This document shows positions 7,408 to 32,150 of a stretch of DNA of 64,000 nucleotides, piece by piece (positions within the stretch are counted from its first letter, which is position 1; every line of letters begins with the position of its first letter). Below the pieces are notes generated by a model that saw nothing but the letters and a program-made list of their open reading frames with translations, ran no database searches and was not told where the DNA came from. Source of the DNA: Desulfovibrio desulfuricans DSM 642 (lineage in GTDB: Bacteria > Desulfobacterota > Desulfovibrionia > Desulfovibrionales > Desulfovibrionaceae); the NCBI RefSeq assembly GCF_000420465.1, contig NZ_ATUZ01000016.1, forward strand, positions 186,001 to 250,000. Direction: 5' to 3'. The translations under genes and the position numbers were made by a program.

Positions 7408-8218
7408 GGTGAGCCTGTCGAGCGCATTTACGCAAACCCGACTTTTACGCCCTGAATGCGTCAGCGCCGGGATTTTGATGCTCACGTACATGAGTACGCT
7501 GCGCTCAAAATCCCGGTGCTTCCTTTTCAGGCCGCAAAAAGCGTATTTTGCAAATTCGCCCAACACCAGTCATCGCCTCCGCATTCGCTCCGGCGAGTTT
7601 AAGGAAGGTAACTCCACGACCAACTCCTGATGGTGGATAGATTTTTCTGACTCGTAATTTATCCGCCTGATCATGGTTGAATGGTAATTGGCGTCATTAC
7701 GAGTAAATTAAAGATGTTGTATATCTTTTTATTTGTTCTTTGACTTGTCCAAGCTTGATGCTGACTGACTGTATGCCCACGAGGCATTAAACGGGAAGGA
7801 AGTATGCTCTGTAGTTAGGCAAGTACTGAGGATGGTTGGCTGAAGCGGATATTGATCGAAGCGAAAGCGGACTATGGCATTTACGCGGCGCGGAGGGAGA
7901 TCACCTGAGCGAGCGGAGCGAGGGAAGGAAGCTTCCGAAGCTATAGCCGCGTTGCCCTCGCCACACGATGAAATTTGGAAAGCCCGTCTTAGGGGGTGCT
8001 TCGGGGGGGATGCAAGGGGGGCCGAGAAGGGGGCGTAGCCCCATAACCGGCCCCACCTTGCCGCGCGCCGCGCAGGCGTCCAAACACCGCCGAAGGGCGG
8101 AATCACATGCCCGAAGGGCAGTAAACTGCTTAAGCCCCACGCGGGGAGGCGAACCCGCGCGCCGCGCAGGCGTCCCAAACTCCGCCGGATGGCGGAATAT
8201 CGTGCCGAAGGGCCGCAC
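7408..8218 (-). repeat. Composite non-coding repeat, copy 1
   Basis: About 800 bp without a credible gene. Read on the minus strand it has three parts. Block B (8218 to about 7870) begins in a GC-rich segment and ends near a CTCCCTCCGCGCCG sequence. A variable centre (about 7870-7640) follows. Block A (about 7635-7408) contains the hairpin described separately. Blocks A and B recur in the same order at 31395-32150 on the plus strand, while the centres differ. Part of block B is also duplicated inside this copy: 8061-8126 and 8155-8218 share GCCGCGCAGGCGTCC and a following CGCCG...GGCGGA unit. The centre contains an inverted repeat ACTCGTAAT/ATTACGAGT around 7650-7705. The small frames here exist because of the repeat and show no ribosome sites worth trusting. 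Confidence 0.8.
7447..7535 (-). ncRNA. Covarying hairpin of the repeat family, copy 1
   Basis: A long imperfect hairpin. The outer arms are CGCCCTGA (7448-7455) and TCAGGCCG (7527-7534), and the inner 16-bp arms are 7463-7478 and 7505-7520 (core CCGGGATTTTGA/TCAAAATCCCGG). The internal loops (ATGCGTC and TCCTTT on the plus strand) and the 26-nt apical part with the GTAC-TCAT-GTAC mini-stem match those of the copies at 28148-28248 and 32012-32100, although the arm sequences differ. Orientation is assigned to match the plus-strand copy. Whether it is transcribed is not visible from sequence. Confidence 0.55.
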
Positions 8219-8386
8219 ACTCCCCCCCACCGACAGGCTAAATCTCTCCCCCCTCTCCTCTGGGGAAATCCCTTAGTCCTTTTTTCACAATTCAGGATTC
8301 TCCTGATAGCACCCAACCCCTTTCCAACCTATTTTGGGCTGAACGTAAATAAACTTGCGTCGGCAAAAGGCCGCAAGGGGGAAACA

Positions 8387-9508
8387 ATGGCTTTTGATTT
8401 CCAAAGAACCCTGAAGAGCGGGGCTGAGAATTTTGTTGTGAAGTTCATTCTGCTGCCCGTGGCACTGTGTCTGTGGCTGGCCTGTCCGGCTTCGGCACAG
8501 GCAGACAAAACGCCTGCGGCTGCACCTGTTGTGAGCGCTCAAACGGAGAACGCCCCGCAGCCCCCGGCATTTGTGGCTGTGGCTGCCGCTGATACTTCGG
8601 TGCAGGCCGCGCCCGCTGAAGCCGCTCCTGCTGCTTCGCAAGCGCCTGAGGCGGTGGCTATAGACAACAATCCGTGGTGGTACTGGCCGCTGGCCCTGCT
8701 GTTCTTCTGTTTTATCCTCGGCGTGATCGCCGTCATGGCTGGTGTGGGCGGCGGCGTTTTGTTTGTGCCGCTGGTGAGCGGGTTTTTCCCCTTCCACCTC
8801 GACTTTGTGCGAGGCGCTGGTCTGCTGGTGGCCCTTGCGGGCGCGCTGGCCGCTGGCCCCGGTCTGTTGCGGCGTAACTTCGCCAATCTGCGCCTGGCTC
8901 TGCCTGTGGCGCTGATTGCCTCGGCTTGCGCCATCGTTGGCGCCATGCTCGGTCTGGCGCTGCCGACTAATATCATTCAGACCTGCCTTGGCGCGACGAT
9001 TCTTGGCATTGCCGTGCTGCTGCTGCTTTCCAAAAACTCAGTACGCCCGGTGGTGACCAAGCAGGATGCCATAGGCCTTGCACTCGGCATGGACGGCGTT
9101 TTTCTTGAACCCAGCACTGGTGAAGTGGTGGAGTGGAAAACTCACCGCACCCTGGCTGGCCTGCTGTTGTTCATCGCCATCGGCATCATGGCTGGCATGT
9201 TCGGCCTTGGCGCTGGCTGGGCCAACGTGCCGGTGCTCAACCTGCTCATGGGCGCGCCCCTCAAGGTGGCCGTGGGCACCTCAAAATTTCTGCTTTCCAT
9301 TACCGACACGTCTGCCGCCTGGGTGTATCTGAACCAGGGCTGCGTTATCCCGCTCATGGCCGTTCCTTCCATCGTTGGCCTCATGCTGGGTTCTGTGGTG
9401 GGTGTGCGGCTGCTTGCCAAGGCCAAGCCCAAGTTCATCCGCTACATGGTTATTGGCGTGCTCTTCTTCTCCGGGGCCAAGGCCCTCATGAAGGGCCTCG
9501 GCTGGTAA
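8387..9508 (+). CDS. TauE/SafE-family anion permease
   Basis: Predicted inner-membrane transporter of the sulfite exporter TauE/SafE family, which move sulfite, sulfonates or related small anions. The 373-residue protein opens with a signal-like segment (FVVKFILLPVALCLWLACPASA), then an alanine/proline-rich periplasmic stretch, then about eight hydrophobic helices. Two copies of the family's glycine-rich turn are seen, AGVGGGVLFVPL and AGMFGLGAGWANVPVL, as expected for its internal duplication. The ATG at 8387 follows AAGGGGGAAAC; the open frame upstream of it lies in the repeat region. It heads a plus-strand cluster with a small membrane protein and five signalling genes, which suggests that its substrate or activity is sensed by the kinases. 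Sulfite as substrate is an inference. Confidence 0.85.
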   Translation: MAFDFQRTLKSGAENFVVKFILLPVALCLWLACPASAQADKTPAAAPVVSAQTENAPQPPAFVAVAAADTSVQAAPAEAAPAASQAPEAVAIDNNPWWYWPLALLFFCFILGVIAVMAGVGGGVLFVPLVSGFFPFHLDFVRGAGLLVALAGALAAGPGLLRRNFANLRLALPVALIASACAIVGAMLGLALPTNIIQTCLGATILGIAVLLLLSKNSVRPVVTKQDAIGLALGMDGVFLEPSTGEVVEWKTHRTLAGLLLFIAIGIMAGMFGLGAGWANVPVLNLLMGAPLKVAVGTSKFLLSITDTSAAWVYLNQGCVIPLMAVPSIVGLMLGSVVGVRLLAKAKPKFIRYMVIGVLFFSGAKALMKGLGW

Positions 9509-9545
9509 TCCGCACCGGATACGCTTGAATAGAAGGGAGAAAACA

Positions 9546-9974
9546 ATGACCACTGATTTGAAACACGACATAAAGGCATCCCCCGCGCAACTGCGCTATG
9601 CAGACACCCTGTTCTATGGCGCGCTGCTGGGCTTTGTGGTAATGCTTGTTACCTACGCGCTCTACGTTTTGGGTGTGCTGACGCCGCAGATTCCTCTGGA
9701 TGAAATGCCGCGCCTCTGGACCCAGAACGCCGCCGCCTACCGCGCGGCGGGCAATATTCCTCAAGGCTGGGGCTGGCTTGCTCTTGTGGGCAAGGGCGAT
9801 ATGTGCAATTTCATTGGTATCGCTTTTCTTGCGGCACTTACCATTTTCTGCTTTGTGCAGCTTGCCATAGGGCTGATACGGCAGAAGCAGTGGATTATGG
9901 CGATCATTGCCGTACTTGAAGTGCTGGTGCTTACCCTTGCGGCTTCGGGCGTTCTGGTGGCTGGCGCTCATTAG
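9546..9974 (+). CDS. Small integral membrane protein, DUF1634-like
   Basis: A 142-residue protein with three hydrophobic segments, at about 25-48, 95-115 and 120-140, separated by a polar loop containing the tryptophan-rich NIPQGWGWLALVGKGDM. The ATG at 9546 follows AGAAGGGAGA at good spacing, 37 bp after the TauE/SafE gene, so the two are probably co-transcribed. Small three-helix proteins of the DUF1634 type are often found next to TauE/SafE permeases, and the size and topology fit. I did not have a family-specific motif to confirm this. A role as an accessory or partner subunit of the permease is an inference. Confidence 0.65.
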   Translation: MTTDLKHDIKASPAQLRYADTLFYGALLGFVVMLVTYALYVLGVLTPQIPLDEMPRLWTQNAAAYRAAGNIPQGWGWLALVGKGDMCNFIGIAFLAALTIFCFVQLAIGLIRQKQWIMAIIAVLEVLVLTLAASGVLVAGAH

Positions 9975-10066
9975 CCGGGATTTTGCCTTACGGGGCCGGG
10001 GAACGTGCCGCCGTGGAGCGGAACCGCACCAGCGGGCTTGACGGCGGCGCAGACCTTGGAGGGCAT

Positions 10067-11827
10067 ATGCTTGCCACGATAAAAAACTACTTCGCGCATC
10101 TGCTGGAAGTTCCGGAGGCAGTGTCTCCGGCCCGTTACCGCTCACTGCGGCGGCTGATGACAGTGCTCATGGTGGCCGTTTCGGTTACGCCGCTACTGCT
10201 GCTTTCGGCCATCAGCCATGTGCAGTACATGCGTACCCTTGAGCGCGAACTGGAAAGCCCGGTATACGCCCTGGCCCGCAAATCGCAGGCGGCGCTGGAA
10301 CTGTACCTTGGCGAGCGTGTTTCCACTGTGAGTTTTCTGGCCCACGCGTATACCTTCAAGGATTTGCTGGACGAGCGAACTCTCAACCGCGTGTTTCTGG
10401 CCCTCAAGAGTGAATATCAGGGCTTTGTGGATATGGGCCTGGTGGACTCGGACGGCCAGCAGGTTGGCTATGTGGGGCCGTACAAGCTCAAGGGCGTGGA
10501 TTACGCGGGCAAGCCATGGCTGCGCGATACCGAGATAAAGGGGCGCTACCTCAGCAACGCAATTCTGGGGTATCGCGGGTATCCGCACCTTGTTGTGGCA
10601 GTGCACAGGCTTGAAGAAAACGGCGTTTCGTGGACGTTGCGCGTGGCCACAGATACCCTGCGCATCCAGCAGGTTGTATCCACCGTTGGGCCGGAGCACG
10701 ACACGGACGTGTTTCTTGTAGACACGGAAGGCGTGCTGCAAACGGATTCCAATCTTTTTGGCAAAGCGCTGGAAAAACTGCCCATGGATTTGCCCCCGGC
10801 CTCGCACGAAACAGTGGTGCGCCGTATTACCGACCCCAAGGGCAGGCAGCTCATGGTGGCCTCGTGCACACTGGCAGGCACGGATTTCATGCTGTTGGCC
10901 GTCAAGCCCACGGAAGACGCCATCCGCCCCTGGCTGGCCCTGCGCACGGAATTGCTGCTGGTCTTGTGCGGCGGCATTGCCCTGATCTTTATGGTTTCGA
11001 ATCTGCTCATGCAGCAGCTTATAAACCGCTTGCAGGCCAGCGATGAACGCCGGGTCGCTGTTTTTGCCCAGATGGAGCACAACCAGAAGCTTTCGTCCAT
11101 CGGGCGGCTGGCTGCGGGCGTGGCCCACGAGGTCAATAATCCGCTGGCCGTCATTTACGAAAAGGCGGGGCTTGCCCAGGATCTTTTGAGCATGGGCAAG
11201 GTGTGCGGCGAGGGCAAGGACAAGGAAAGGCTCTGCGCACTGCTGGAAGGCATTGAAAGCACAGTGGAACGCGCACGAGGCATTACCCACAGGTTGCTGG
11301 GCTTTGCCCGCCGTATGGAAGCCAACCGCCAGGCCCTGCACATAGAAGAAGTTATTTCAGAAACCCTTGGTTTTCTTGAGCGCGAAGCCAAAAATCGGGG
11401 CGTCAAGCTTGAAACGGAACTGCCGCCCAACCTGCCGGAAATTGTGTCGGACCGGGGGCAGTTGCAGCAGGTATTCCTCAATATCGTAGGCAACGCGCTG
11501 GACGCGCTGGCTGGTGGCGAGGGCGGCATGCAGAAACCTCAGGGCGAGGAGCGGTTTGTTAAAATACGCTGCCAAGGCCAGGGCGGACAGATGCTGATAA
11601 GTGTGCAGGACAACGGCAAGGGCATGTCGCCCGAAGTGCTCAGGCATATTTTTGAGCCGTTTTACTCCACCAAAAAAGACAAGGGAACCGGGCTCGGCAT
11701 GTTCATCACCTATGGCATCGTGCGCAAGCTTGGCGGCGAAATTCACGTGCAAAGCGAAGAAGGGCGGGGCAGCACCATAAGCATCACCCTGCCGCTTACT
11801 CCGCCAGATGTCGCGGTGGAGGTGTAG
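10067..11827 (+). CDS. Membrane sensor histidine kinase with double-Cache-like sensor
   Basis: A 586-residue histidine kinase. One membrane helix lies at about 27-47 and another at about 305-330. They enclose a periplasmic region of about 250 residues whose pattern (YVGPYKLKGVDYAGKPW, GYRGYPHLVVAV, DVFLVDTEGVLQTDS) fits a dCache-type sensor. The cytoplasmic part has the H-box AAGVAHEVNNPLAVI (H354), then N, G1 (VQDNGKGM), F (FEPFYSTK) and G2 (GTGLGMFITYGIV) boxes of a complete HATPase domain. The ATG at 10067 follows TTGGAGGGC. The stop nearly touches the next receiver gene, and that gene's ribosome site lies inside this reading frame, so the pair is coupled. Confidence 0.92.
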   Translation: MLATIKNYFAHLLEVPEAVSPARYRSLRRLMTVLMVAVSVTPLLLLSAISHVQYMRTLERELESPVYALARKSQAALELYLGERVSTVSFLAHAYTFKDLLDERTLNRVFLALKSEYQGFVDMGLVDSDGQQVGYVGPYKLKGVDYAGKPWLRDTEIKGRYLSNAILGYRGYPHLVVAVHRLEENGVSWTLRVATDTLRIQQVVSTVGPEHDTDVFLVDTEGVLQTDSNLFGKALEKLPMDLPPASHETVVRRITDPKGRQLMVASCTLAGTDFMLLAVKPTEDAIRPWLALRTELLLVLCGGIALIFMVSNLLMQQLINRLQASDERRVAVFAQMEHNQKLSSIGRLAAGVAHEVNNPLAVIYEKAGLAQDLLSMGKVCGEGKDKERLCALLEGIESTVERARGITHRLLGFARRMEANRQALHIEEVISETLGFLEREAKNRGVKLETELPPNLPEIVSDRGQLQQVFLNIVGNALDALAGGEGGMQKPQGEERFVKIRCQGQGGQMLISVQDNGKGMSPEVLRHIFEPFYSTKKDKGTGLGMFITYGIVRKLGGEIHVQSEEGRGSTISITLPLTPPDVAVEV

Positions 11828-11828
11828 A

Positions 11829-12224
11829 ATGTCATTACGCATCCTTCTGGCTGACGATGAAAAGGAATTTGTCGATACCCTGGCAGAGCGTCTTTCGCTT
11901 CGCGGATTTGCGCCCTATGTGGTTTATGACGGCATCAGCGCCCTCCAGGCCGCCACGCCGGAAAAACCCGATGTTGTGGTGCTTGATCTTTTCATGCCCG
12001 GTCTGTCGGGCGATGAGGTGCTGCGCCGCCTCAAGGTTCTGTATCCTGATTTGCCGATCATCCTGTTGACCGGGCATGAGGCGGTGGACGACAACGGCAC
12101 AAACCCCGTGGCGCAGGCCTTTGCCTGCCTCACCAAGCCGCTGAGTTTCAATGTTTTTCTGGAAACGCTGCAAGCTGCCGTGCGTGAAGGCAAGGAATGC
12201 ACAGCCAACGGAGGCAAGTCATGA
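11829..12224 (+). CDS. Single-domain response regulator
   Basis: A 131-residue protein made of a receiver domain only: acidic pocket ILLADDEKEF, phospho-acceptor in VVVLDLFMPGLSG (D53), ILLTGH and the conserved lysine in ACLTKPLSF. With no output domain it must act by phospho-transfer or protein contact. The start overlaps the regulatory end of the preceding kinase gene (GGAGGTG lies in that gene's last codons), and its stop overlaps the ATG of the next gene by four bases (ATGA at 12221). This implies translational coupling across kinase, receiver and kinase-like protein. Confidence 0.93.
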   Translation: MSLRILLADDEKEFVDTLAERLSLRGFAPYVVYDGISALQAATPEKPDVVVLDLFMPGLSGDEVLRRLKVLYPDLPIILLTGHEAVDDNGTNPVAQAFACLTKPLSFNVFLETLQAAVREGKECTANGGKS

Positions 12225-12886
12225 ATGAAAGTCAGTGCATGGCCCGCTTGCTGGCTTCAGCCGTTCACGACATGCGCAACGTACTGGCCGTGATTCGTGA
12301 ATCTGCCGGGCTGGCGCAGGATCTGGCAACTCTGGCTGGCGGCAAGACTGTTGCCGCGCCGGGGGCAGAGCGGCTTTCATCGGCATTGAGTGAAGTGCAG
12401 CGTTCCATCATTCAGGGGGCGGCCCTTTCCGAAGCCATGGATTTCATGGCTCAGGCTGGGGGCATGGAGCTTGGCAGCGCTGGCCCCTGCGATCTTGCGC
12501 GGGTAAGCCGCAGTTTCTGCCTGCTGGCGGCGCGTCAGGCGCGCGCGGCGCAGATACAGCTGACCAGCGGCGAAACTGAAGAGCCCGTGTGGGCCAATGT
12601 GCCGCCTTTGGCAGTGCTGCGGTCACTGCTTGAAGTGTTTGACCTCTGCGCCTCGGTGGGCGGGCAGGTGAACCTGCGCCTCACCGCCGGACGGCGGCAG
12701 AAGGAAGAAGGCATCATTGTAGAGGCACTGGAAGGTGCCAACCGCGAAATGGCCCTGGCGGCCATGACGGGTAGTCCCATGCTTGACGGCATGCGCCCCG
12801 GTTGGCGCGCCGTGCTTATGCCCTGGCGAGACGCCGGGCCAAGATTTTTCCTTTCCATTTCGGCCTGCGATAGCGAAGGCGAATAA
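12221..12886 (+). CDS. Histidine-kinase-like protein lacking a recognisable ATPase domain
   Basis: A 221-residue protein whose N-terminus resembles a dimerisation/phospho-acceptor helix: SAVHDMRNVLAVIRESAGLAQD, with H16 followed by D and N-R-N in the H-box position. The remaining 170 residues show none of the N, G1, F or G2 boxes of a HATPase domain. The section where the N-box should be reads LAVLRSLLEVFDLCAS, and no DxGxG is found. Two readings are possible: a histidine phosphotransferase of the ChpT kind (H-box helix pair plus degenerate ATPase fold), or a decayed kinase kept as a scaffold. The frame is intact, and the start overlaps the preceding receiver gene. Its position between two single-domain receivers favours a relay role. 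Confidence 0.75.
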   Translation: MNESQCMARLLASAVHDMRNVLAVIRESAGLAQDLATLAGGKTVAAPGAERLSSALSEVQRSIIQGAALSEAMDFMAQAGGMELGSAGPCDLARVSRSFCLLAARQARAAQIQLTSGETEEPVWANVPPLAVLRSLLEVFDLCASVGGQVNLRLTAGRRQKEEGIIVEALEGANREMALAAMTGSPMLDGMRPGWRAVLMPWRDAGPRFFLSISACDSEGE

Positions 12887-12925
12887 CCGGCGCCGGCATG
12901 TTGCCGGGCCTTCAAGGAGTATTCC

Positions 12926-13399
12926 ATGACCAAGGAAGACATCAAAATCCTGCTGGTGGACGACGAAAAGCAGTTTGTGGACACGCTGTCGGAGCGCCTT
13001 GCCATGCGCGGCTTTGAAGCGCAGGTAGCCTATGACGGCCCCGAGGCCCTCAAGGCTGTGGAGCAGCCCACCGATGTTATCGTGCTTGACCTGCGCATGC
13101 CCGGCATGGACGGCTTTGAAGTGCTGCGCAACGTCAAAAAGAGCAATCCGCAGGTTCAGGTCATCATTCTTACGGGCCATGGCGGCGACGCTGAAGAACA
13201 GACCGCCTATCGCATGGGCGCGTACAACTTTCTCAGAAAGCCCATGGACATTGACGAATTGCTCAACAGCATTCGCATGGCCTACCGCGACAAGCTTGAG
13301 AACGCCATGGTGGCTGTTTCTCTGGCCGAAGGCGGGGACTTTGATTCGGCCCGCGATGTTATGAACGAAAAGGACGTGCTGGAAGAGCACGGTAAATAA
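12926..13399 (+). CDS. Single-domain response regulator with C-terminal tail
   Basis: A 157-residue protein: receiver domain with ILLVDDEKQF, the phospho-acceptor in VIVLDLRMPGMDG (D55), IILTGHGG and the conserved lysine in NFLRKPMDI, then a 30-residue tail (LAEGGDFDSARDVMNEKDVLEE) without a DNA-binding fold. The tail resembles those seen on stand-alone receivers of delta-proteobacterial relays. The ATG at 12926 follows AAGGAG. It is closely similar in sequence to the receiver at 11829-12224 (shared EK.FVDTL.ERL..RGF), which suggests duplication within the cluster. Confidence 0.92.
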   Translation: MTKEDIKILLVDDEKQFVDTLSERLAMRGFEAQVAYDGPEALKAVEQPTDVIVLDLRMPGMDGFEVLRNVKKSNPQVQVIILTGHGGDAEEQTAYRMGAYNFLRKPMDIDELLNSIRMAYRDKLENAMVAVSLAEGGDFDSARDVMNEKDVLEEHGK

Positions 13400-13426
13400 G
13401 CGCTGGTGCAGCTTTGGCCGGGGAGG

Positions 13427-13452
13427 GCCGGATGGAGCGCATCCGGCCTGCG
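13427..13452 (+). other. Intercistronic hairpin
   Basis: GGCCGGATG and CATCCGGCC-like arms separated by a short loop form a strong hairpin between the receiver gene and the receiver-kinase gene. No T-run follows, so it looks like an RNA-stability or partial-termination element rather than a full terminator. Confidence 0.4.
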
Positions 13453-13624
13453 GAAAGGGTGTTTCTGCACGAAATGCTCTTGCAGAAATTTGCCCTAACT
13501 CCCTGCCATAAAACAGGCGTTGGCTGGTCTTGCCCGCCGCAAGGCGGCTGGTTCAAGCGTTAATTGCCCCGGAGCGATTTCTTGAAAGTGCCCGGGCGGC
13601 AGCGGTTCGCCATAGGAGTTCGCC

Positions 13625-14839
13625 ATGCGTGTGCTTGTTGTGGATGACGAACCTGCCTTTTCGGAGCCTTTGGCCGAGCGTCTGGCATTGCGGGGCTACG
13701 AAACCGCAACCGCGCAGGATGCCGATGCGGCCCTGGCCGAACTGGCGCGCGGCCCCCGCGACCTCATATTTCTTGATGTGGGGCTGCCGGGTATGGACGG
13801 CGTGGACCTGCTGAAAATTCTGCGCGAGCACTACCCGCAGACCGATGTGGTGATGCTTTCCGGCGCAGGAGATATGGGCAAGGCTGTGCAGGCCATGCGG
13901 CGCGGCGCGCTGAACTGGCTGTCAAAGCCTGTGGGCATGGACGGCATCCTTGCGGAATGCCGCAAAGCGGCGGAACGCGCAGGCGCAAGGCAGGAAGCCG
14001 CCCGTCTGGCCGAGGCAGCCCGCTGGCGCAGCCTTGGCCGGGTAGCGGAAGGTGTGGCCCATGAGGTCAACAATCCGCTGAATATCATGGTGCAGGCCGC
14101 CGGCCTGATCCGTGACTGTCTGGAAGAGCCGGAAGCTGAAGCTTTGCCGGATATCGGCGAAGTACGCGAAGCTGTGGACACCATCAGGACGCAGAGCCTG
14201 CGGGTGCGCGAGATTACGCGCAAGCTGCTTATGGTCGGGCACGGGCTTGACCCCCGCGTTGGCGCGCTTGATGTGGCTGCGGATGTTGCCCAGGTGCTGC
14301 GCCTTCTGCACGAACGCATGGAAAGCGCCCATGTGCGCTGCGATGTACGCGTGCCCCAGGGCGAGGGCGCACCCCGCCCCTTGGGTTCCGCCCCGGAATT
14401 GCAGCAGATATGCCTGCATTTGCTGGAAAACGCGCTGGATGCTCTCAGTGATATTGAATCCGCATCAGGAGCGGCAGAGCGCCCCGGCGGTCTGATTACC
14501 CTGGCCGCCAGCACCAGACGCGATGCGCAGGGGCAGGACTGGTATGACCTTGTGGTGCGCGACAACGGCCCAGGCATCGCGTCCGACATCATGCCGCACA
14601 TATTTGAGCCTTTTTTCAGCACGCGCGCCCTGCAAAGCCCTGTTGCCGCGCATGCATCCGGCGGCAAGACGCTTGGCCGCTACGTGGGCTTGGGGCTTGC
14701 GGTGGCCCGTTCCCTGGCGCACGCCCGGGGCGGAGAGCTGACAGCAGCCAACGCGGCTGATGGCGGTGCAGAATTCTGCCTCAGCCTGCCTCTGGCGGAA
14801 TCTCTGGGGGAACGCCCAACGCCCAAGGTCGAAGCATAG
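13625..14839 (+). CDS. Receiver-histidine kinase hybrid, soluble
   Basis: A 404-residue cytoplasmic protein with the domains in reversed hybrid order. The receiver comes first (VLVVDDEPAF; D51 in LIFLDVGLPGMDG; NWLSKPVGM). The kinase follows, with H-box GVAHEVNNPLNIM (H146) and a HATPase domain with G1 VVRDNGPGI, F-box FEPFFSTR and G2 GLGLAVARSLAH. No membrane helix is present, so input presumably arrives by phosphorylation of the receiver or by protein contact. The ATG at 13625 follows ATAGGAG. It closes a seven-gene plus-strand cluster and is followed by a rho-independent terminator. Confidence 0.92.
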   Translation: MRVLVVDDEPAFSEPLAERLALRGYETATAQDADAALAELARGPRDLIFLDVGLPGMDGVDLLKILREHYPQTDVVMLSGAGDMGKAVQAMRRGALNWLSKPVGMDGILAECRKAAERAGARQEAARLAEAARWRSLGRVAEGVAHEVNNPLNIMVQAAGLIRDCLEEPEAEALPDIGEVREAVDTIRTQSLRVREITRKLLMVGHGLDPRVGALDVAADVAQVLRLLHERMESAHVRCDVRVPQGEGAPRPLGSAPELQQICLHLLENALDALSDIESASGAAERPGGLITLAASTRRDAQGQDWYDLVVRDNGPGIASDIMPHIFEPFFSTRALQSPVAAHASGGKTLGRYVGLGLAVARSLAHARGGELTAANAADGGAEFCLSLPLAESLGERPTPKVEA

Positions 14840-14933
14840 GACTCTGAAATTTTTCATATTGTGCGCGCAATGCCCTGTATCTGACGTTTGCGCCCTGCAT
14901 CACCTCCATGCGCCCCAAGCGTTTACGGTGGAA

Positions 14934-14972
14934 GCCCCTTGCCAAGGGTTCGGCAAGGGGCATTTCTTTTAT
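14934..14972 (+). terminator. Rho-independent terminator after the signalling cluster
   Basis: Arms GCCCCTTGCC (14934-14943) and GGCAAGGGGC (14952-14961) pair perfectly around an 8-nt loop, followed by ATTTCTTTTATT. It lies about 95 bp after the receiver-kinase stop. Confidence 0.8.
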
Positions 14973-24350: not shown

Positions 24351-25307
24351 CTACGCCAGGCCGTCTTTCAGCTGCTTTTCAAAGTAGGCGATGGTTTTAA
24401 CCAGGCCTTCTTCAAGAGCTACCTTGGGTTCCCAGCCAAGCTTTTCGCGGGCCAGGGTGATGTCGGGCTTGCGCTGCTTGGGGTCATCGCAGGGCAGGGG
24501 TTCGTAAGAAATCACCGACTTGCTGCCGGTCATTTCCACGACCTTTTCGGCCAGTTCGCGGATGGTGAACTCGCCGGGGTTGCCCATGTTCATGGGGCCC
24601 ACAAAATCATCGGGCGAGGCCATGAAGCGGATCATGCACTCCACAAGGTCGTCCACATAGCAGAAGGAGCGGGTCTGGGAGCCATCGCCGTAAATGGTGA
24701 TGGATTCGCCCTTGAGCGCCTGAATGATGAAGTTGGAGACCACGCGCCCATCGTTGGGGTGCATCTTGGGCCCGTAGGTATTGAAGATGCGTCCCACCTT
24801 GATGGGCAGGTTGCCTTGCCGCCAGTAGGCAAAGAACAGGGCTTCGGCGCAGCGCTTGCCTTCATCGTAGCAGGAGCGGATGCCGTTGGGGTTCACATGG
24901 CCCCAGTAGCTTTCCTGCTGCGGATGTACCTCGGGGTCGCCGTACACTTCGCTGGTGGATGCCTGATAAATGCGCGCGCCAAGCCTCTTGGCCAGGCCCA
25001 GCATATTGATGGCGCCGTGGACGCAGGTCTTGATGGTCTGCACCGGGTCGTGCTGATAATGGATGGGCGAGGCCGGGCAGGCCAGATTGTAAATTTCATC
25101 CACCTCTACATAGAGGGGAAATGTCACGTCGTGGCGGATAAGCTCAAACCTGCGGTTATCCATGAGCGCTTCCACGTTGGCGCGTGCGCTGGAAAAGAAA
25201 TTGTCCACGCAGAGCACTTCGTGCCCTTCGTTGAGCAGGCGTTCGCACAGTTGCGAACCCAAAAAGCCGGAACCGCCGGTGACAAGAATGCGTTTGCGGA
25301 GATGCAT
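24351..25307 (-). CDS. UDP-glucuronate decarboxylase (UDP-xylose synthase)
   Basis: Extended short-chain dehydrogenase that converts UDP-glucuronate to UDP-xylose in the cytoplasm, supplying a cell-surface sugar. The 318-residue product has the NAD-binding [10 protein letters not shown] at the N-terminus, [12 protein letters not shown], the catalytic STSEVYG with YxxxK (Y147, K151) and the substrate-binding [20 protein letters not shown]. These are typical of UXS rather than of dTDP-glucose dehydratase. The ATG at 25307 follows GGGGGAA; the frame continues upstream without support. It is divergent from tatD and directly precedes the complex-I-like operon with a 14-bp gap, an odd pairing of functions. 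Confidence 0.9.
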
Positions 25308-25479
25308 GATTCCCCCGAAAAAAGTATAGGAAACCAGTAAAAACTGGCAAATCCCCCAAAGCATAGCCCCATTGCTCGGGCTTTGCAATGGCGGTTGGGT
25401 ACGGGGGTGTCTGCTGCCGGGGTCTTGCCCCTTGCCTTTCGCCTGCGCCCGTTGCTATGTATCGGCCGCGAGGTATACC

Positions 25480-26313
25480 ATGTCGAAAAAATCAGCCGTC
25501 CGCATTGATCCCCTGGCTCTGGCCCTGCCCCTTGCCGGGGTGGACAGCCACGCGCACCTTGATGGTCAGGAATTTGATGCGGATCGCGATGCCGTGCTTG
25601 AACGCGCCCACGCGGCAGGTATTGCGCAGGTGGGCAACGTTTTTTTGGGGCCGGAAGAGTATCATGCCCGCCGGGCTTATTTTGATGCCCACCCCGAAGT
25701 GTTTTTTCTTATGGGCGTGCACCCGTGTGACGGGCAGAACTGCACGCAGGAGCGCCTTGCCGCCATGCGCGCCGCCTTTGCCGAGGACTCCCGCCTCAAG
25801 GCCGTGGGCGAAATCGGTCTGGATTTTTACTGGCCCGATTGTCCGAGGGAAATCCAGTATCAGGCCCTGCGCGATCAGCTTGCTCTGGCGCACGCCGTGG
25901 AGCGCCCGGTGGTCATTCACTGCCGAGATGCAGAGGAAGAAACACTCATGACGCTGGAGGCCGAGGGCTTTGCCGGGTATCCCCTCCTGTGGCACTGCTT
26001 TGGTCAGGGGCCGGAAACCGCGCGGCGCATCTTGCGCAACGGCTGGCACATATCCATTCCCGGCCCGGTCACCTACAAGGCCAATGAGGCCCTGCGCGAG
26101 GCTGTGGCCCTTATCCCCGCCGACCGTCTGCTGCTGGAAACCGATGCCCCCTATCTTGCGCCCCTGCCGTGGCGGGGCAAGCGCAACGAGCCTTCCTATA
26201 CGGTGTTTACCGTGCGGGCCATGGCCGAAGCGCGGGGAGAGAACCCCGAAGATATCTGGCGTACCTGCGGCGACAATGCCCGCCGGTTTTTCGGCCTGCC
26301 AGCGCAGGAATGA
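25480..26313 (+). CDS. TatD-family metal-dependent deoxyribonuclease
   Basis: A 277-residue TIM-barrel hydrolase of the TatD/YcfH family. Metal-binding residues are visible in the expected order: VDSHAHLDG near the N-terminus, GVHPCD, AVGEIGLDFY (bridging glutamate), VVIHCRDAEEE, LLWHCFGQG and LLLETDAPYLAP. TatD proteins are 3'-5' exonucleases or related hydrolases. The ATG at 25480 follows GAGG; upstream in-frame codons are in the UXS promoter region. The final residues GDNARRFFGLP are also typical of the family. It stands alone upstream of the glycine cleavage genes. Confidence 0.93.
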   Translation: MSKKSAVRIDPLALALPLAGVDSHAHLDGQEFDADRDAVLERAHAAGIAQVGNVFLGPEEYHARRAYFDAHPEVFFLMGVHPCDGQNCTQERLAAMRAAFAEDSRLKAVGEIGLDFYWPDCPREIQYQALRDQLALAHAVERPVVIHCRDAEEETLMTLEAEGFAGYPLLWHCFGQGPETARRILRNGWHISIPGPVTYKANEALREAVALIPADRLLLETDAPYLAPLPWRGKRNEPSYTVFTVRAMAEARGENPEDIWRTCGDNARRFFGLPAQE

Positions 26314-26565
26314 TGCCGTGCTGACCCCCGCCAGCCCCGCCCGCGCGGCTGGCCTTGCACGGGTCTGTTCTTGTGTCCACATGGCAGAAGTGATACCATG
26401 TCCAAAGCCGCTCGAAACGGTGGCTTGGTAATGTTTTTGATAAATATTTTCGGTGGTTGTCCGCGCTTGGTACGGCTTGCCGCAGCGCATTGCAGCGGCA
26501 GGGCAGCCTTGGCGCGTCCTCTATAGCGTCAGCGCAAGCTGTTTGCCCAACTTCAAGGAGATTCC

Positions 26566-27648
26566 ATGTCGGATCTGCGTACCCCCCTCACTGCCTGGCA
26601 CGAGGCGCATGGCGCAAAAATGGCCCCCTTTGCCGGGTGGCTTATGCCCATCCAGTATGAGGGTATTATTGTCGAGCATCAGCACACCCGCCAGCATGCA
26701 GGTCTTTTTGACATCTGCCACATGGGCGAATTTCTTATTGAAGGCCCCGGCGCGGACGAAGCCCTGAGCAAGGCCGTGAGCCACAACCTCCAGACCCTTG
26801 CCCCCGGCAAGTGCCGATACGGCTTTTTGCTCAACGAAAAGGGCGGCGTGCTGGACGATGGCATCATCTACCGCTTCGGCCCTGATTCCTTCATGGCCGT
26901 GGTCAACGCCGCCTGCGCCGCCAACGACTTCGCCGTGCTGCGCGCCCGCCTGCCCCAAAGCGTCAAGATGACCGATATTTCCGCAGAAACCGGCAAGATC
27001 GACCTCCAGGGGCCGGAATCTCTGGACGTGCTCGAAAAGCTGCTGGGCCAGAATTTTCATGACCTCGGGTACTTTTGCTTTCGTGAAACCACATGGCAGG
27101 GTTCGCCCCTGCTGGTGAGCCGCACCGGCTACACCGGCGAACTGGGCTACGAGCTGTATATCGCCGCCTCTGAAGCCGAGGCTTTCTGGAACGCCCTGCT
27201 GGCTGACGAACGCGTCAAGCCCATAGGCCTTGGCGCGCGCGATACCCTGCGCCTTGAGGCTGGCCTGCCCCTGTACGGACATGATCTGGATGAGAATCAC
27301 AGCCCCGCAGAAGCCGGTATGGGGCGTATGATGACCAGCACCGCCGACTATGTGGGCCGCGAAGGCGCGCAGAACATTGCCGAAGTGCTGGTGCCTCTGC
27401 GTATTGACGGCCGCCGTGCCGCCCGCCACGGTGATGTGGTCGCCCTTGCTGACGGCACGGAAGTGGGCCACGTGACCAGCGGTTCGTTTGCGCCCTCGCT
27501 GGGTTATGTGATCGCCTTTGCCTGGGTCAAGGCCGCGCATGCCGGGGCCGAAAATTTTGTGGTTCGCGCCGCCAGAACGGAGCTGCCCGCCACGCGGGTT
27601 GAAGCGCCGTTCTACACCGAAGGCACCGCGCGTAAAAAACTGGCCTGA
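26566..27648 (+). CDS. gcvT: Glycine cleavage system T protein (aminomethyltransferase)
   Basis: Transfers the methylene group from aminomethyl-lipoyl GcvH to tetrahydrofolate and releases ammonia. The 360-residue product has the folate-binding blocks FAGWLMPIQY, GLFDICHMGEF, KCRYGFLLNEKGGVLDD, LQGPESLDVL, RTGYTGELGYELY and the C-terminal GHVTSGSFAPSLG, all expected for GcvT. The ATG at 26566 follows AAGGAG. It begins a plus-strand series gcvT-gcvH-gcvPA-gcvPB. The 250 bp upstream show no glycine riboswitch core that I can recognise. The L protein is not in the window. Confidence 0.95.
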   Translation: MSDLRTPLTAWHEAHGAKMAPFAGWLMPIQYEGIIVEHQHTRQHAGLFDICHMGEFLIEGPGADEALSKAVSHNLQTLAPGKCRYGFLLNEKGGVLDDGIIYRFGPDSFMAVVNAACAANDFAVLRARLPQSVKMTDISAETGKIDLQGPESLDVLEKLLGQNFHDLGYFCFRETTWQGSPLLVSRTGYTGELGYELYIAASEAEAFWNALLADERVKPIGLGARDTLRLEAGLPLYGHDLDENHSPAEAGMGRMMTSTADYVGREGAQNIAEVLVPLRIDGRRAARHGDVVALADGTEVGHVTSGSFAPSLGYVIAFAWVKAAHAGAENFVVRAARTELPATRVEAPFYTEGTARKKLA

Positions 27649-27745
27649 TACGGTCATTGATCTGTGCGGGCCGCATCCCACGGCACCTCACGCAGAACAG
27701 CGTAATTTTTATAACGATTGAACCCAATTTTTCAGGAGTTTGCAC

Positions 27746-28132
27746 ATGGCTACCAATCCCGCCGATATTCTGTACAGCACCAGCCACGAATGGACCCGCA
27801 TTGAAGGGGACGAGGCCGTCATCGGCATCACCAGCTTTGCCCAGGAATCCCTTGGTGATATCACCTACGTGGAACTGCCCCCCGTGGGCGACCAGCTTTC
27901 TGAAGACAAGGAATTCGGCTCTGTGGAATCGGTCAAGGCCGCCAGCGACCTGATTTCTCCCGTTTCGGGCGAAGTGATAGCCGTGAACGAAGCTCTGGAA
28001 AACACCCCCGAGCTTTGCAACAGCGACCCCTTTGGCGAGGGCTGGATTGTGCGCGTCAAGCTGGCCCACAAACCCGGCGGTCTGCTGGACGCGGCGGCTT
28101 ACGAGGCTCATTGCGCCACCGAAAAGCATTAA
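27746..28132 (+). CDS. gcvH: Glycine cleavage system H protein (lipoyl carrier)
   Basis: A 128-residue lipoyl-domain carrier that shuttles the aminomethyl group between GcvP, GcvT and the L protein. The lipoylated lysine is K64 in [12 protein letters not shown], embedded in the usual context [13 protein letters not shown] and [14 protein letters not shown]. The ATG at 27746 has GGAG upstream; an in-frame ATG two codons earlier is less well placed. It lies 97 bp after gcvT. The 347-bp gap to gcvPA is unusual for a gcv operon and contains a structured hairpin. Confidence 0.95.
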
Positions 28133-28147
28133 TCCGTCATGCGTGTT

Positions 28148-28248
28148 TTTTCGGTTCCGGCTGCGTCAGACAATTTTTTTATTCCGGTCGAGTACCTAAG
28201 AGTACACTCCCTGCATAAAAAAATCGTCTTCCTTGCCGGAACCGAAAA
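28148..28248 (-). ncRNA. Covarying hairpin of the repeat family, copy 3 (in the gcvH-gcvPA gap)
   Basis: A 101-nt hairpin. The outer arms TTTTCGGTTCCGGC (28148-28161) and GCCGGAACCGAAAA (28235-28248) pair perfectly over 14 bp. The inner arms (28168-28182 and 28215-28229) pair over 15 bp with one A-C mismatch, which is a G-U pair on the minus strand. The internal loops are TGCGTC on one side and TCCTT on the other, and the apical part contains GTAC repeats. On the minus strand CAAGGA and TGACGCA occupy the same internal-loop positions as in the copies at 7447-7535 and 32012-32100. There is no T-run on either side, so it is not an ordinary terminator. Confidence 0.6.
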
Positions 28249-28479
28249 TCCACGGCATGCCGTTTGACGTGGGTAGCGCAGTTTAACCAAGTTACCCATG
28301 TATGATTTTGGGCTGCCTGCGCGCTGGCAAACTTTTGCACCGAGTGTGTAACAGCCTGAAATTTTTCCTTTCGCACCGGCTGGAGCAGCGTCGTACAACG
28401 GCGGGTTCCAGCCGGAGTCCCTTTCACAGCGGCTGCCGTCGCACAAGCGGTACAACGTGTCCGGCGGCAAGGAGCTAGT
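28249..28479 (+). other. Leader region upstream of gcvPA
   Basis: About 230 bp with no credible gene. It contains an interrupted inverted repeat around CACCGGCTGGAGC...GTTCCAGCCGG (about 28374-28411), which could form a stem, and ends with AAGGAG ahead of gcvPA. No known riboswitch core was recognised. Confidence 0.35.
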
Positions 28480-29811
28480 ATGCCATACATTCCCCATACG
28501 CCGGAAGAGTTGCATGAAATGCTCTCCGTAGTTGGCGTGCGCAGTCTGGATGAGCTTTTTTCCGACATCCCGTCCAGCATGCGCCCCCAGAGCTTTGATC
28601 TGCCCAAGGGGCAGAGCGAGGCCGCCGTCTGCAGACACTTTGAAGAGCTGGCAGCCAAAAACTGCCCCGGTCATGTGTCCTTTCTCGGCGCAGGCTTTTA
28701 TAACCACGACATCCCCAAGGCTGTGGACGCGCTTTCTGGCCGCAGCGAATTTTACACCGCCTACACGCCCTATCAGGCAGAATGCTCACAGGGCACCTTG
28801 CAGGCCATTTTTGAGTTCCAGACCGCCGTCAGCCGTCTGCTGGAAATGGATTGCGGCAATGCCTCCGTGTATGACGGCGGCACCGCCATTTTTGAAGCCG
28901 CCATGATGGCTGTGCGCTCCACGCGCCGCCGCGTGCTGGTGGTGGACGAAGCCGTCAACCCCATCTGGCGCTCCATGCTGGAGGCCTATGTTTCGAGCCT
29001 TGATCTGGAAATCAAGACCGTACCCCAGCAGAATGGTTGCAGCGATATGGACGCCCTCATGGCTGCCACCGACACTACATGCGCTGCCGTCATTGTGCAG
29101 AATCCCAACTTCTTCGGCGCAGTGGCGGACTACACGGCCCTGTTTGCCAAGGCCCGTTCCAACAAGGCCTTTGGCGTCATCTCCGTGTATCCGGTCATGC
29201 AGTCCGTTCTTAAAACCCCTGGCGAAATGGGGGCTGACGTGGCCGTGGCCGAAGGCCAGAGCCTTGGCATGAACCTCTCGTTCGGCGGCCCCTACCTCGG
29301 GCTCATGGCCTGCCGCAAGGAACACATCCGCCAGTTCCCCGGCCGCATTGTGGGCCGCACCACCGATGTGGACGGCAAAACCGGCTACGTGCTGACCCTG
29401 CAAGCCCGCGAGCAGCACATCCGCCGCGCCAAGGCCACATCCAACATTTGCTCCAATCAGGCTCTCTGCGCCCTGCGCTCGCTCATCCACATGAGCCTGC
29501 TTGGCCCGCAGGGCCTCACCCGCGTGGCCGAAAACAACATGGCTCTTGCCCGCTACGCTGTGGAGCGCCTCACCGCCCTCAAGGGTGTGGAACTGCTCAA
29601 CAGCGCCCCCTACGGCTCGGAAGTGGCCCTGCGCCTGCCCATGCCCGCTGCTGAAGTGGTCAAGGCCATGACGCAGAAGGGTGTCGTGCCCGGCTATCCG
29701 CTGGGCCATCATTATCCCGGCATGGAAAACGTGCTGCTGCTCTCGTGCACCGAGGCCAACAACCGCACCCAGATAGACAAGCTGGCCGAAATCATGGGAG
29801 GTCTGCTGTGA
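28480..29811 (+). CDS. gcvPA: Glycine dehydrogenase (decarboxylating) subunit 1
   Basis: The N-terminal half of the P protein in its split, two-subunit form; with GcvPB it decarboxylates glycine using PLP. The 443-residue protein has SFLGAGFYNHDIPKAVD, TAYTPYQAECSQGTLQA, GNASVYDGGTAIFEA, NPNFFGAVAD and NICSNQALCALR, all diagnostic of gcvPA. The subunit itself lacks the PLP lysine, as expected. The ATG at 28480 follows AAGGAG. Its stop overlaps the GTG start of gcvPB (GTGA), giving translational coupling for a 1:1 complex. Confidence 0.95.
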   Translation: MPYIPHTPEELHEMLSVVGVRSLDELFSDIPSSMRPQSFDLPKGQSEAAVCRHFEELAAKNCPGHVSFLGAGFYNHDIPKAVDALSGRSEFYTAYTPYQAECSQGTLQAIFEFQTAVSRLLEMDCGNASVYDGGTAIFEAAMMAVRSTRRRVLVVDEAVNPIWRSMLEAYVSSLDLEIKTVPQQNGCSDMDALMAATDTTCAAVIVQNPNFFGAVADYTALFAKARSNKAFGVISVYPVMQSVLKTPGEMGADVAVAEGQSLGMNLSFGGPYLGLMACRKEHIRQFPGRIVGRTTDVDGKTGYVLTLQAREQHIRRAKATSNICSNQALCALRSLIHMSLLGPQGLTRVAENNMALARYAVERLTALKGVELLNSAPYGSEVALRLPMPAAEVVKAMTQKGVVPGYPLGHHYPGMENVLLLSCTEANNRTQIDKLAEIMGGLL

Positions 29812-31256
29812 AAACCATTTTCGCCAAATCCGTTTCTGGGCGCACAGCCTGCTGCCTGAACAGCGACGCCCCCAAGGCTGAGGCCATGTTGCCCGCAGAC
29901 CTGCTGCGCAAAAAAGCTCCCCGTCTGCCCGAATGCTCGGAACTGGACGTGGTGCGTCACTTCACCCAGCTTTCGCAACTCAACTACAGCGTGGACGCCA
30001 ATTTCTATCCTCTTGGCTCCTGCACCATGAAGTACAACCCCAAGTTCATGGAATACGTGGCGGCGCTGCCGGGCTTTACTCACCTGCACCCCATGATGGC
30101 CCAGCTTGAGGGCGGTGCCGACTGCGCCCAGGGCGCGCTGCAATGCCTGTATGAAGCCGAGAATCTGCTCTGCGAACTCACGGGCATGAAGGCCTTTACC
30201 TTCCAGCCCATGGCCGGGGCCAACGGCGAATTCACCGGCGTAAAGCTCATTGCCGCCTATCACAAGGCCAAGGGACGCAACCGCAAAAAGATGCTCATTC
30301 CCGATGCGGCCCACGGCACCAACCCTGCCTCCGCCGCCCTTGCCGGATTTGACACCATCAACATCGAATCACGCGACGGCATGGTGGATCCCGAAGCCAT
30401 TGTGGCTGCCATTGCCGAACATGGAGAAGATGTGGCGGGCCTCATGATGACCTGCCCCAACACCCTCGGCCTCATGGAAGTGCACTTGCCCCGCATCGTT
30501 GCCGAACTGCGCAAAGTCGATGCCTTGCTGTACTACGACGGCGCGAACATGAACGCCATCATGGGAAAAATACGCATGGGCGATGTGGGCTTTGACGTGG
30601 TACACCTCAACGTGCACAAAACCCTGGCCACCCCGCACGGCGGCGGCGGCCCCGGCGCTGGCCCCGTGGGCGTTACCGACCGTCTGCTGCCCTTTATGCC
30701 CGCCCCGCGCGTGGCAAAGCATCCTGACGGGCGTTTCTTCCTCGATTACAACCTGCCGCAGACCATCGGCCCCATCGGCCCCTTCTACGGCAGCTTTGGC
30801 GTGGTCATCAAAGCCCTGGCCTACATGCTGCGCCTCGGCGGCGAAGGCCTCACCCGCGCCTCTGAATACGCCGTGCTCAACGCCAACTACCTCAAGAAAA
30901 AACTTGAGGACGTGCTGGAGATTCCCTTCAAGGATCGTTTTTGCGCGCACGAATTCGTGGCCTCCGCACCGCAGGGTCTGCGCGCTCTGGATATCGCCAA
31001 GGCCTTGCTGCAACGTGGCATTCACGCGCCTACCATCTACTTCCCGCTTATCGTACACGAGTGCCTCATGGCCGAGCCCACGGAGACGGAAAGCAAGGAA
31101 ACTCTGGACGGTTACGTTGAAGCCCTGAAGGAGATCATCCTCACGGGCAAGGCTGATCCGCAGTCCCTTCAGGAACTGCCCACCAACCTGCCCGTGCGCC
31201 GTCTGGATGAAACCGCCGCCGCGCGTCAGATGGTGCTGACGGAAGATATGGGATAG
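29808..31256 (+). CDS. gcvPB: Glycine dehydrogenase (decarboxylating) subunit 2
   Basis: The C-terminal half of the split P protein, carrying PLP. The 482-residue product has PLGSCTMKYNPK, FQPMAGANGEF, PDAAHGTNPASA, DVVHLNVHKTLATPHGGG (with the PLP-binding lysine) and YGSFGVVIKALAYM. The GTG start at 29808 is set by GGGAGGT just upstream and by the GTGA overlap with gcvPA; an in-frame ATG at 29745 lies inside gcvPA. It ends the glycine cleavage series. A GC hairpin without a T-run follows at 31265-31291. Confidence 0.95.
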   Translation: MKTIFAKSVSGRTACCLNSDAPKAEAMLPADLLRKKAPRLPECSELDVVRHFTQLSQLNYSVDANFYPLGSCTMKYNPKFMEYVAALPGFTHLHPMMAQLEGGADCAQGALQCLYEAENLLCELTGMKAFTFQPMAGANGEFTGVKLIAAYHKAKGRNRKKMLIPDAAHGTNPASAALAGFDTINIESRDGMVDPEAIVAAIAEHGEDVAGLMMTCPNTLGLMEVHLPRIVAELRKVDALLYYDGANMNAIMGKIRMGDVGFDVVHLNVHKTLATPHGGGGPGAGPVGVTDRLLPFMPAPRVAKHPDGRFFLDYNLPQTIGPIGPFYGSFGVVIKALAYMLRLGGEGLTRASEYAVLNANYLKKKLEDVLEIPFKDRFCAHEFVASAPQGLRALDIAKALLQRGIHAPTIYFPLIVHECLMAEPTETESKETLDGYVEALKEIILTGKADPQSLQELPTNLPVRRLDETAAARQMVLTEDMG

Positions 31257-31264
31257 AGATAATT

Positions 31265-31291
31265 GGGGGCAGGGGGCTGTCCCCTGCCCCC
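31265..31291 (+). terminator. GC hairpin after gcvPB
   Basis: GGGGGCAGGGG and CCCCTGCCCCC pair around a 5-nt loop nine bases after the gcvPB stop. A purine/A-rich run rather than a T-run follows, so intrinsic termination would be weak on the plus strand. An RNA 3'-end protecting role is also possible. Confidence 0.5.
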
Positions 31292-31394
31292 AAACCCCCA
31301 TCCCGCAAAAAAAACTTTTATTACGGGCCTTGGCTGACGCTGAGGTCTGTTTTTTTTGTTATCGGGTTGAGGCGAAATTTTTTTGTTTGAATGT

Positions 31395-32150
31395 CCTTTG
31401 GGTACGATATTCCGCCCTCAGGCGGAGTTTGGGACGCCTGCGCGGCGCGCGGCAAGGTGGGGCCGGTTATGGGGCTACGCCCCCTTCTCGGCCCCCCTTG
31501 CATCCCCCCCGAAGCACCCCCTGAGGTTTTCAGCTTCCACAAAATTGCGAGGGCAACGCGGCCATAGCTGCGGGAGCTTCCTTCACTCGCTGCACTCGTT
31601 CAGGTGATCTCCCTCCGCGCCGTGTTAATGCCAGAGTACGCTTTTGCGTTGAGTCGAACTCCGTTTCAGCCGGACACAACGAATAACTGTGACGTTGCAG
31701 TGCGTCCTTTTAATTTGACAATTGGAGGTTTCGGTTAGCCCACAGTCAGATATGCAAAGTTTTTTTCAGCGGGCTGAGGCAAGCGCCGCCGACATATAGC
31801 TGAAATCACAAAAGCGGGGTGAAATAGTTCGCGAGGTATGGGAGTAGAGACAGTATTGAATTTTATTCGGCCAGGATAAGGCGGATGAACTACGCGTAAC
31901 TGGAACTCGGCTCGCCATCAGGAGCTGGTCGTGAAGTCGCCTTCCTTAGACTCGCCGGAGCGTAGCGGAGGCGATGGTTGGTGTTGGGTGAATTTGCAAA
32001 ATACGGTTTTTGCGGTCTGACAAGGAAAAATCCAGTTTTTAAGCGCAGCGTACTTGTGTACGTGAGCATTAAAAACTGGATTTTGACGCATTCAGTCCGT
32101 AAAAGTCGGGTTTGCGTAAATCAGCCGGACAGGCTCACCCACACCCATCA
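31395..32150 (+). repeat. Composite non-coding repeat, copy 2
   Basis: About 755 bp with the same arrangement as 7408-8218, in the opposite chromosomal orientation. Block B lies at 31395-31650 and matches copy 1 closely in a GC-rich segment (for example GGCAAGGTGGGGCCGG and CAGGTGATCTCCCTCCG). A centre of about 250 bp (31650-31880) resembles copy 1 only at its edges. Block A lies at about 31880-32150 (for example GTGTTGGGTGAATTTGC and AAAAGTCGGGTTTGCG). Short frames here encode peptides similar to those of copy 1 but without ribosome sites, and they change most within the hairpin arms. I read the element as non-coding. Confidence 0.8.
32012..32100 (+). ncRNA. Covarying hairpin of the repeat family, copy 2
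   Basis: The inner arms AAAATCCAGTTTTTAA (32027-32042) and TTAAAAACTGGATTTT (32069-32084) form 16 perfect pairs. The outer arms around 32012-32020 and 32092-32100 (CTGA/TCAG core) pair with one mismatch. The internal loops are CAAGGA and TGACGCAT, and the 26-nt apical part contains GTAC-TTGT-GTAC. The apical part differs from copy 1 at two positions only, while the arms are unrelated in sequence but still complementary. Confidence 0.6.

Follow-up and report, generated by a model that had tools for sequence, protein, structure and literature searches.

Dispersed palindromes are common in bacteria and are usually defined by their sequence. Among the kinds described, the CGTC-tagged repetitive extragenic palindromes (REPs) are 20-40 bp long, with an 8-9 bp stem, a loop of 4-5 nt and a tag at one end; the paper describing them mentions neither Desulfovibrio nor Lentisphaerae (Di Nocera et al., 2013, PMC3733652). 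Miniature inverted-repeat transposable elements (MITEs) of the IS630 type, such as RUP, NEMIS/Correia and ERIC, are about 100-160 bp long, target TA and form long RNA hairpins that are co-transcribed with neighbouring genes; the effect of ERIC on the upstream mRNA is reported to depend on its direction (PMC2229807). Here, we analysed a window of 64,000 nucleotides from Desulfovibrio desulfuricans DSM 642 (contig NZ_ATUZ01000016.1, positions 186,001 to 250,000; the window is this whole stretch), which carries three long hairpins. These are members of a large family of dispersed DNA repeats that is apparently undescribed, is located at gene ends in sulfate-reducing bacteria and in some Lentisphaerae of the gut, and seems to be preserved in its folded shape rather than in the sequence of its stems.

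The hairpins had been noticed in a first-pass annotation, which placed them at 7447-7535, 28148-28248 and 32012-32100 and gave them a common order of parts. We observed all three at these positions with that order, and GTAC-N4-6-GTAC was found in 3/3. The internal loop, described as AAGGA on one side and TGACGCA on the other, is present and corresponds to TGCGTC(A) opposite TCCTT when read in antisense. Copy 2 stands alone, whereas copies 1 and 3 are inverted copies of one larger repeat and not independent singletons. The fold energy of each hairpin gave z-scores of -6.6 to -9.5 against dinucleotide shuffles on either strand, with 0/200 shuffles as good. The hairpins and the parts of copy 2 are as follows:

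7434..7549, plus strand: class-1 hairpin (copy 1), covariance-model match of 87.6 bits, E 4.9e-21
28139..28258, plus strand: class-2 hairpin (copy 2, core 28148-28248), covariance-model match of 120.8 bits, E 1e-30, fold z -7.3 and -9.5 on the two strands
28162..28167, plus strand: TGCGTC, unpaired left side of the internal loop of the class-2 hairpin, 80-98% conserved per base in 76 copies
28186..28211, plus strand: apex GGTCGAGTAC-N6-GTACACTCCC with mismatches T.C, C.T and A.A, the same apex being found in Lentisphaerae
28230..28234, plus strand: TCCTT, unpaired right side of the same internal loop, 89-98% conserved per base in 76 copies
31998..32113, minus strand: class-1 hairpin (copy 3), covariance-model match of 87.7 bits, E 4.7e-21

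A covariance model of the family, built from an alignment of 21 copies and with a core of about 120 positions and 36 pairs in whole elements of 100-200 nt, detected 39 copies in the window's own genome, where copy 1 as a query returned about 15 related places and copy 2 a further set. Of 41 near relatives, 12 gave matches; genomes G007 and G017 each reached at least 88 copies (the number scored, which is a lower bound), and most congeners had none. Across the order Desulfovibrionales, 61 of 199 sampled genomes gave matches, distributed patchily over 19 of 43 genera and five families. An exact scan for the apex (GGTCGAGTAC-N2-10-GTACACTCCCT) returned at least 120 stretches; among the matches listed, most came from Desulfovibrio and the next largest share from Lentisphaerae of the gut, and Thiomicrorhabdus, Verrucomicrobia, Bacillota and Clostridia contributed single records. 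Metagenome bins account for most of these records, and the isolated odd ones may be contamination. One viral contig carries the apex, and records of Nitratidesulfovibrio oxamicus and Desulfovibrio sp. A2 carry copies. The Lentisphaerae copies are spread over many contigs, and their stems are longer and differently spaced. At loci L181, L204, L218, L215 and L188 (Lentisphaerae, Thiomicrorhabdus and a Bacillota bin), copies were located just past tRNA genes, past 23S rRNA or beside 5S rRNA. No gathering-level Rfam match was found in the window, and at a relaxed threshold seven loci gave sub-threshold, chance-level matches only, in agreement with the earlier remark that no named family applied. 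Searches of open-licence papers by motif and by topic found no description of the hairpin family.

Classes 1 and 2 share the order CTTTT, mid-stem, TGCGTC(A), inner stem, apex, inner stem, TCCTT, mid-stem, CAAAA. Outside the core that had been noted earlier lie a conserved TTTTG/CAAAA pairing block and a second asymmetric loop of the CGTC/TCCAT type, and class 2 has an additional outermost stem that is variable yet complementary. The unpaired bases were the best-conserved positions in an alignment of 76 copies (73-98%): GCGTC reached 81-98% per base and TCCTT 89-98%, and within the unpaired TC..A/A..TC of the apex, T and C reached 97-98% and A 73-84%. The terminal arms vary freely between copies of one genome, while the interior loops are fixed. 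In a G017 subfamily the apical GTAC/GTAC is replaced by GGAC/GTCC. Other repeated palindromes, GGGGGAGGGACCCTTTTGCAAAAGGGTCCCTCCCCCAC and TAGAGCATTTAAC..GTTAAATGCTCTA, frequently adjoin the hairpins in G017 flanks (L140, L142, L148, L154, L165). At L015 (G000:C18:61153-61442), the apex of a class-1 hairpin is interrupted by an insert of about 155 bp that itself contains hairpins.

Covariation of the paired positions was analysed in two alignments. The first was made with MAFFT from 21 copies, on a structure hand-drawn from the fold of one row; 24 of its 36 pairs had changed on both sides, and the covariation score was 0.414, as against 0.132 after shuffling and at most 0.17 in slid registers. 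The second, the 76-copy alignment, was drawn from many Desulfovibrionales and fitted to the covariance model, hence leaning towards it; it showed pairing-preserving double changes in 33 of 36 pairs, filling 574 cells versus 171 when shuffled, with a score of 0.519 versus 0.158. The shuffling control keeps the relatedness of the copies in place, and these figures are strong, yet they are not probabilities. The 15 Lentisphaerae copies, which have the same architecture, displayed double changes in 22 of 32 predicted pairs. The excess of paired changes in both alignments bears out the first-pass annotation, which had described the inner arms as unrelated yet complementary around fixed loops. Its proposal of selection on a folded RNA or DNA agrees with the pair covariation and conserved unpaired bases of the 76 copies and with the separate covariation in Lentisphaerae. 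The covariance model, which formed part of the check it had suggested, produced matches in many genomes. It had also named ordinary terminators, or duplicates free of excess paired substitutions, as outcomes that would speak against a selected fold; the excess is large and no terminator-like T tract was found in the copies read. The copies are mainly intergenic, in keeping with its argument against coding.

Changes within the stems could be followed in the G007-type set of 78 copies, in which the mean diversity was 0.047 over 137 positions versus 0.31 in both arms of the 10-bp mid-stem. Among the 65 copies readable in the mid-stem, 45 were perfectly paired and 15 had a single mismatch, with 36 distinct stems in all; the single mismatches fit stepwise compensation. 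Paired swaps were also seen between species, in orthologous copies whose flanks are 82-94% identical. In the orthologous pair L192/L404, where the flanks are 93-94% identical, four of the ten mid-stem pairs differ and all four are compensated. As this swap is too fast for ordinary substitution, the comparison suggests that copies also replace one another by gene conversion, and selection may therefore not be the sole source of the pairing. At L004 (G000:C14:349312-349382), class-1 flanks from which the hairpin is missing (query 1-33 runs directly into 114-145) adjoin a full copy.

The position of the hairpins relative to genes was examined by counting open reading frames (100 codons or longer) whose ends fall 40-75 nt from the apex. 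Such ends numbered 38 in the sense and 10 in the antisense direction, five of the latter resting on a TAA within the element itself, and an independent set of 40 further loci from other genomes gave 24 sense and 5 antisense ends. Many stop codons form the first bases of the element (TA|G). Hairpin-associated stops were TAG or TAA in 35 of 37 cases (95%), as against 163 of 277 (59%) in the background, and CTAG was present at 15 of 37 (41%) as against 26 of 277 (9%), with p about 6e-6 in both comparisons, computed over copies that are related. At the polA stop codon in 27 congeners, all nine occupied sites read CTAG, compared with one of 18 unoccupied sites (p 2e-6, on the same footing); the nine carry the hairpin or its deletion derivative, with outer stems that are quite different. 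Between gcvH and gcvP, G000 and G013 carry the same hairpin and G058 one whose stems are unrelated; G005 and G015 have a 20-nt spacer there, and G068 has no hairpin. Orthologous copies occupy the same stop codons in several species at polA, gcvH, pgk and an aminotransferase gene. The ends of a G017 subfamily read TA|G...C|TA, and TA stands on both sides in many, not all, of the G017 copies. At the polA 3' end of G042 (L353), hairpins are repeated in tandem, all in one direction, with a period of 152 bp, and similar arrays occur at L221 (148 bp) and L235 (150 bp).

Candidate mobilisers were sought in the hairpin-bearing genomes. The Y1/RAYT domain (Y1_Tnp, PF01797) gave 0 matches in G000, G004, G007, G011, G017 and G023, which hold from 14 to at least 88 hairpins each and include the richest, and Y1/RAYT was rejected as the mobiliser on account of this absence. 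IS630 (DDE_3, PF13358) was rejected as well; it was found in 2 of about 22 hairpin-bearing congeners versus about 14 of 23 hairpin-free ones, and is therefore, if anything, anti-correlated with the hairpins. Pattern searches of G017, G021, G023 and G000 for an autonomous element that shares these ends turned up single ends or pairs spaced by about 70-200 bp, and nothing else. Beside the hairpins, only orthologous neighbours recur among the genes.

The reading that we favour, with roughly even confidence, is that these are non-autonomous long-hairpin repeats of a REP- or MITE-like kind, kept by their shape and unpaired tags, inserted at TA or CTAG, and retained in the gene direction at message ends, where they would influence its 3' end. 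Each copy folds into an imperfect hairpin that has a fixed apex and stems interrupted by short asymmetric loops, and the stem sequence is largely free provided that the arms pair. The recognised part would be the unpaired bases, namely CGTC opposite TCC-T, and TC..A opposite A..TC in the apex. New copies may settle at TA, with CTAG preferred, and would therefore often come to lie at the stop codons TAG and TAA. Copies would be kept mainly in the gene direction, with the hairpin starting within a few bases of the stop codon, and the hairpin, transcribed as the 3' end of the message, probably affects message processing, decay or 3'-end formation. A bolder extension, which we consider rather unlikely, is a superfamily of mobile hairpins that spans phyla and is addressed by shape. 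Some enzyme other than RAYT or IS630 would read, on one strand in its folded form, the non-canonical loops (GA/GA and AAGGA/GACGC in antisense), ignore the stem sequence and place copies at CTAG in stop codons in the gene direction; the hairpins would belong to no known RNA family.

Several results weigh against the favoured reading. No autonomous partner or linked enzyme was found among Y1, IS630, same-ended elements and neighbour genes. Because the copies are related, the orientation counts and Fisher p-values suggest more independence than there is. No clean empty site was caught: the best candidate, the gcvH gap of G068, has short direct repeats of ATGC on either side and resembles a deletion more than a site as it was before insertion, and so does not prove an empty target. 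The target-site duplication is deduced from flanks of which one side often reads TG or CA. Folding was more stable on the strand antisense to the upstream gene in 75 of 76 copies, a poor fit with a role as sense RNA; the same was observed in 15/15 Lentisphaerae and 73/73 G007-type copies, and in 74/76 copies with DNA parameters. This strand is more stable because two C-A mismatches turn into wobble pairs on it and because TC/TC and CGTC/TCCTT read GA/GA and AAGGA/GACGC there. G-T and A-C pairs were about equally common outside columns 15 and 16, where wobble favours neither strand. The direction at genes thus points to the sense strand, whereas the folding energy points to the antisense strand.

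This energy difference would suit purely selfish DNA, in which the folded single strand, probably the antisense one, would be the substrate of an enzyme reading hairpin shape and unpaired bases, as for REP or attC, with no RNA function and with the sense bias arising from the mechanics of insertion or loss. The wobble pairs outside columns 15 and 16, which do not single out sense RNA, the one-direction tandem arrays (G042 polA, L221) and the patchy copy number fit it too. It leaves unexplained why copies abut stop codons in the gene direction, and genes of the Y1/RAYT and IS630 types are missing in most genomes rich in hairpins; we regard it as possible but doubtful. The copies shared by several species at the stops of polA, gcvH, pgk and the aminotransferase gene would instead suit an old, vertically inherited regulatory RNA element of the 3' untranslated region (3'-UTR), useful at each locus and of little or no mobility, whose stems drift under pairing. 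So would the contrast between 0.047 and 0.31 in G007-type diversity, even though orthologous flanks are only 82-87% identical. Such inheritance is hard to reconcile with the strong patchiness and very different copy numbers among congeners, with the unrelated stems at gcvH-gcvP in the near relative G058, and with the CTAG dependence at polA, which resembles target choice; we consider it distinctly improbable.

A further alternative is that the copies are ordinary MITEs whose terminal inverted repeats are read at TA by a cross-mobilising DDE transposase (IS630, IS5 or similar), the hairpin being a mere by-product. The TA/CTAG targets, the terminal inverted repeats within subfamilies and the analogy to RUP, NEMIS and ERIC (PMC2229807) are consistent with this. 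Free terminal arms around fixed interior loops are the reverse of what a transposase reading such repeats needs, the IS630 transposase (PF13358) is absent from most hairpin-rich genomes (the IS5 family was not searched for), and no element of insertion-sequence length with these ends occurred in G017, G021, G023 and G000, which together make the explanation very unlikely. The fully compensated L192/L404 pair raises another alternative, in which mutation itself keeps the arms complementary, by template switching within the hairpin or by gene conversion between copies that rewrites both arms together. Template switching would wipe out the asymmetric loops, which are the best-conserved part; the 15/65 copies with a single mid-stem mismatch are expected of stepwise compensation, and the pairing is conserved across phyla. 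We give this alternative only a slight chance. Placement right past stop codons would also suit intrinsic transcription terminators. In the copies read there is no T tract 3' of the hairpin, a terminator scan leaves the 28148 hairpin unmarked, and that copy sits within the gcvH-gcvP gene pair; the probability of this explanation is negligible.

Within the window, copy 2 lies between gcvH and gcvP and starts 1-7 nt past the gcvH stop codon. Copies 1 and 3 are 84% identical over 176 nt (inverted repeat I1) and differ chiefly in the inner stem. The larger repeat that bears them is about 750-810 bp long, and its genome copies align over most of this length. The larger repeats and the neighbouring genes are located as follows:

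6491..7378, plus strand: LuxR-type response regulator, upstream gene of copy 1 (Pfam Response_reg and GerE)
7407..8217, plus strand: larger repeat with the class-1 hairpin close to its left end; the genome has about 15 copies
27740..28132, plus strand: gcvH, glycine cleavage H protein, upstream gene of copy 2 (Pfam GCV_H)
28130..28132, plus strand: gcvH stop codon TAA, with the class-2 hairpin in gene (sense) orientation
28480..29811, plus strand: gcvP subunit 1, downstream gene of copy 2 (Pfam GDC-P)
31395..32140, minus strand: second window copy of the larger repeat, inverted (inverted repeats I1-I5)
32177..33442, minus strand: mnmA-like tRNA thiouridylase, upstream of copy 3 on the strand of copy 3 (Pfam tRNA_Me_trans domains)

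A second, small hairpin was observed 3' of the class-1 hairpin, at 7566-7605 of the window and in class-1 copies, reading TCGCC-TCCGC..GCTCC-GGCGA followed by TTTAAGGAAGG; in G007 its stem differs (CCGTCT/AGACGG) and its loop is unchanged. The window also contains two direct copies of about 700 bp at 35217-35916 and 36025-36724, which are 79-87% identical, 808 bp apart and inside a coding region.

In this family the stem sequence is nearly free, yet pairing and a few unpaired bases are maintained in phyla far apart, and the question of what reads a hairpin is thereby put to a natural test. The rule of placement (a CTAG stop codon in the sense direction), together with the absence of two usual transposase types, makes either a new mobiliser or an RNA function at the 3' end directly testable. 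Probably thousands of intergenic regions in carrier genomes are affected, this being an estimate and not a count.

Compared with known systems, the hairpins of this family resemble the CGTC REPs in having stems that vary complementarily, a location mostly downstream of genes, a first pair that is often A-T and no known dedicated transposase, and perhaps also in an unpaired CGTC on one side and an unpaired CCA-like tail (PMC3733652). They differ in that the elements are 100-200 nt long, that CGTC/TCC-T lies in the interior of a long hairpin, in many cases twice, and that the apex is fixed; the conserved GCGTC opposite TCCTT and CGTC opposite TCCAT thus lie within a longer hairpin, and the resemblance may serve as a lead. 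Like the RAYT-mobilised GTAG REPs or REPINs, the family is non-autonomous, has many intergenic copies and would be recognised by a fold with an unpaired tag; unlike them, its 76-copy consensus has no conserved GTAG, its elements are 100-200 nt rather than 20-40 bp, and six hairpin-rich genomes are without RAYT/Y1. The IS630-type MITEs share the size range, the long hairpins and apparently the TA target, but here the interior loops and not the terminal arms are conserved between copies, and IS630 is absent from most hairpin-rich genomes. In integrons, the folded bottom strand of attC, which folds better than the top one, is recognised by its shape and extrahelical bases while the stems vary freely, and the greater stability of the antisense strand in 75/76 copies may be a comparable trait. 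No RYYYAAC/GTTRRRY core boxes stand out in the 76-copy consensus and no cassette structure was found; an integrase was not searched for. The nearest published kinds therefore appear to be the CGTC REPs and TA-targeting MITEs such as ERIC, from which the hairpin family is set apart by its size, its free terminal arms or the missing transposase.

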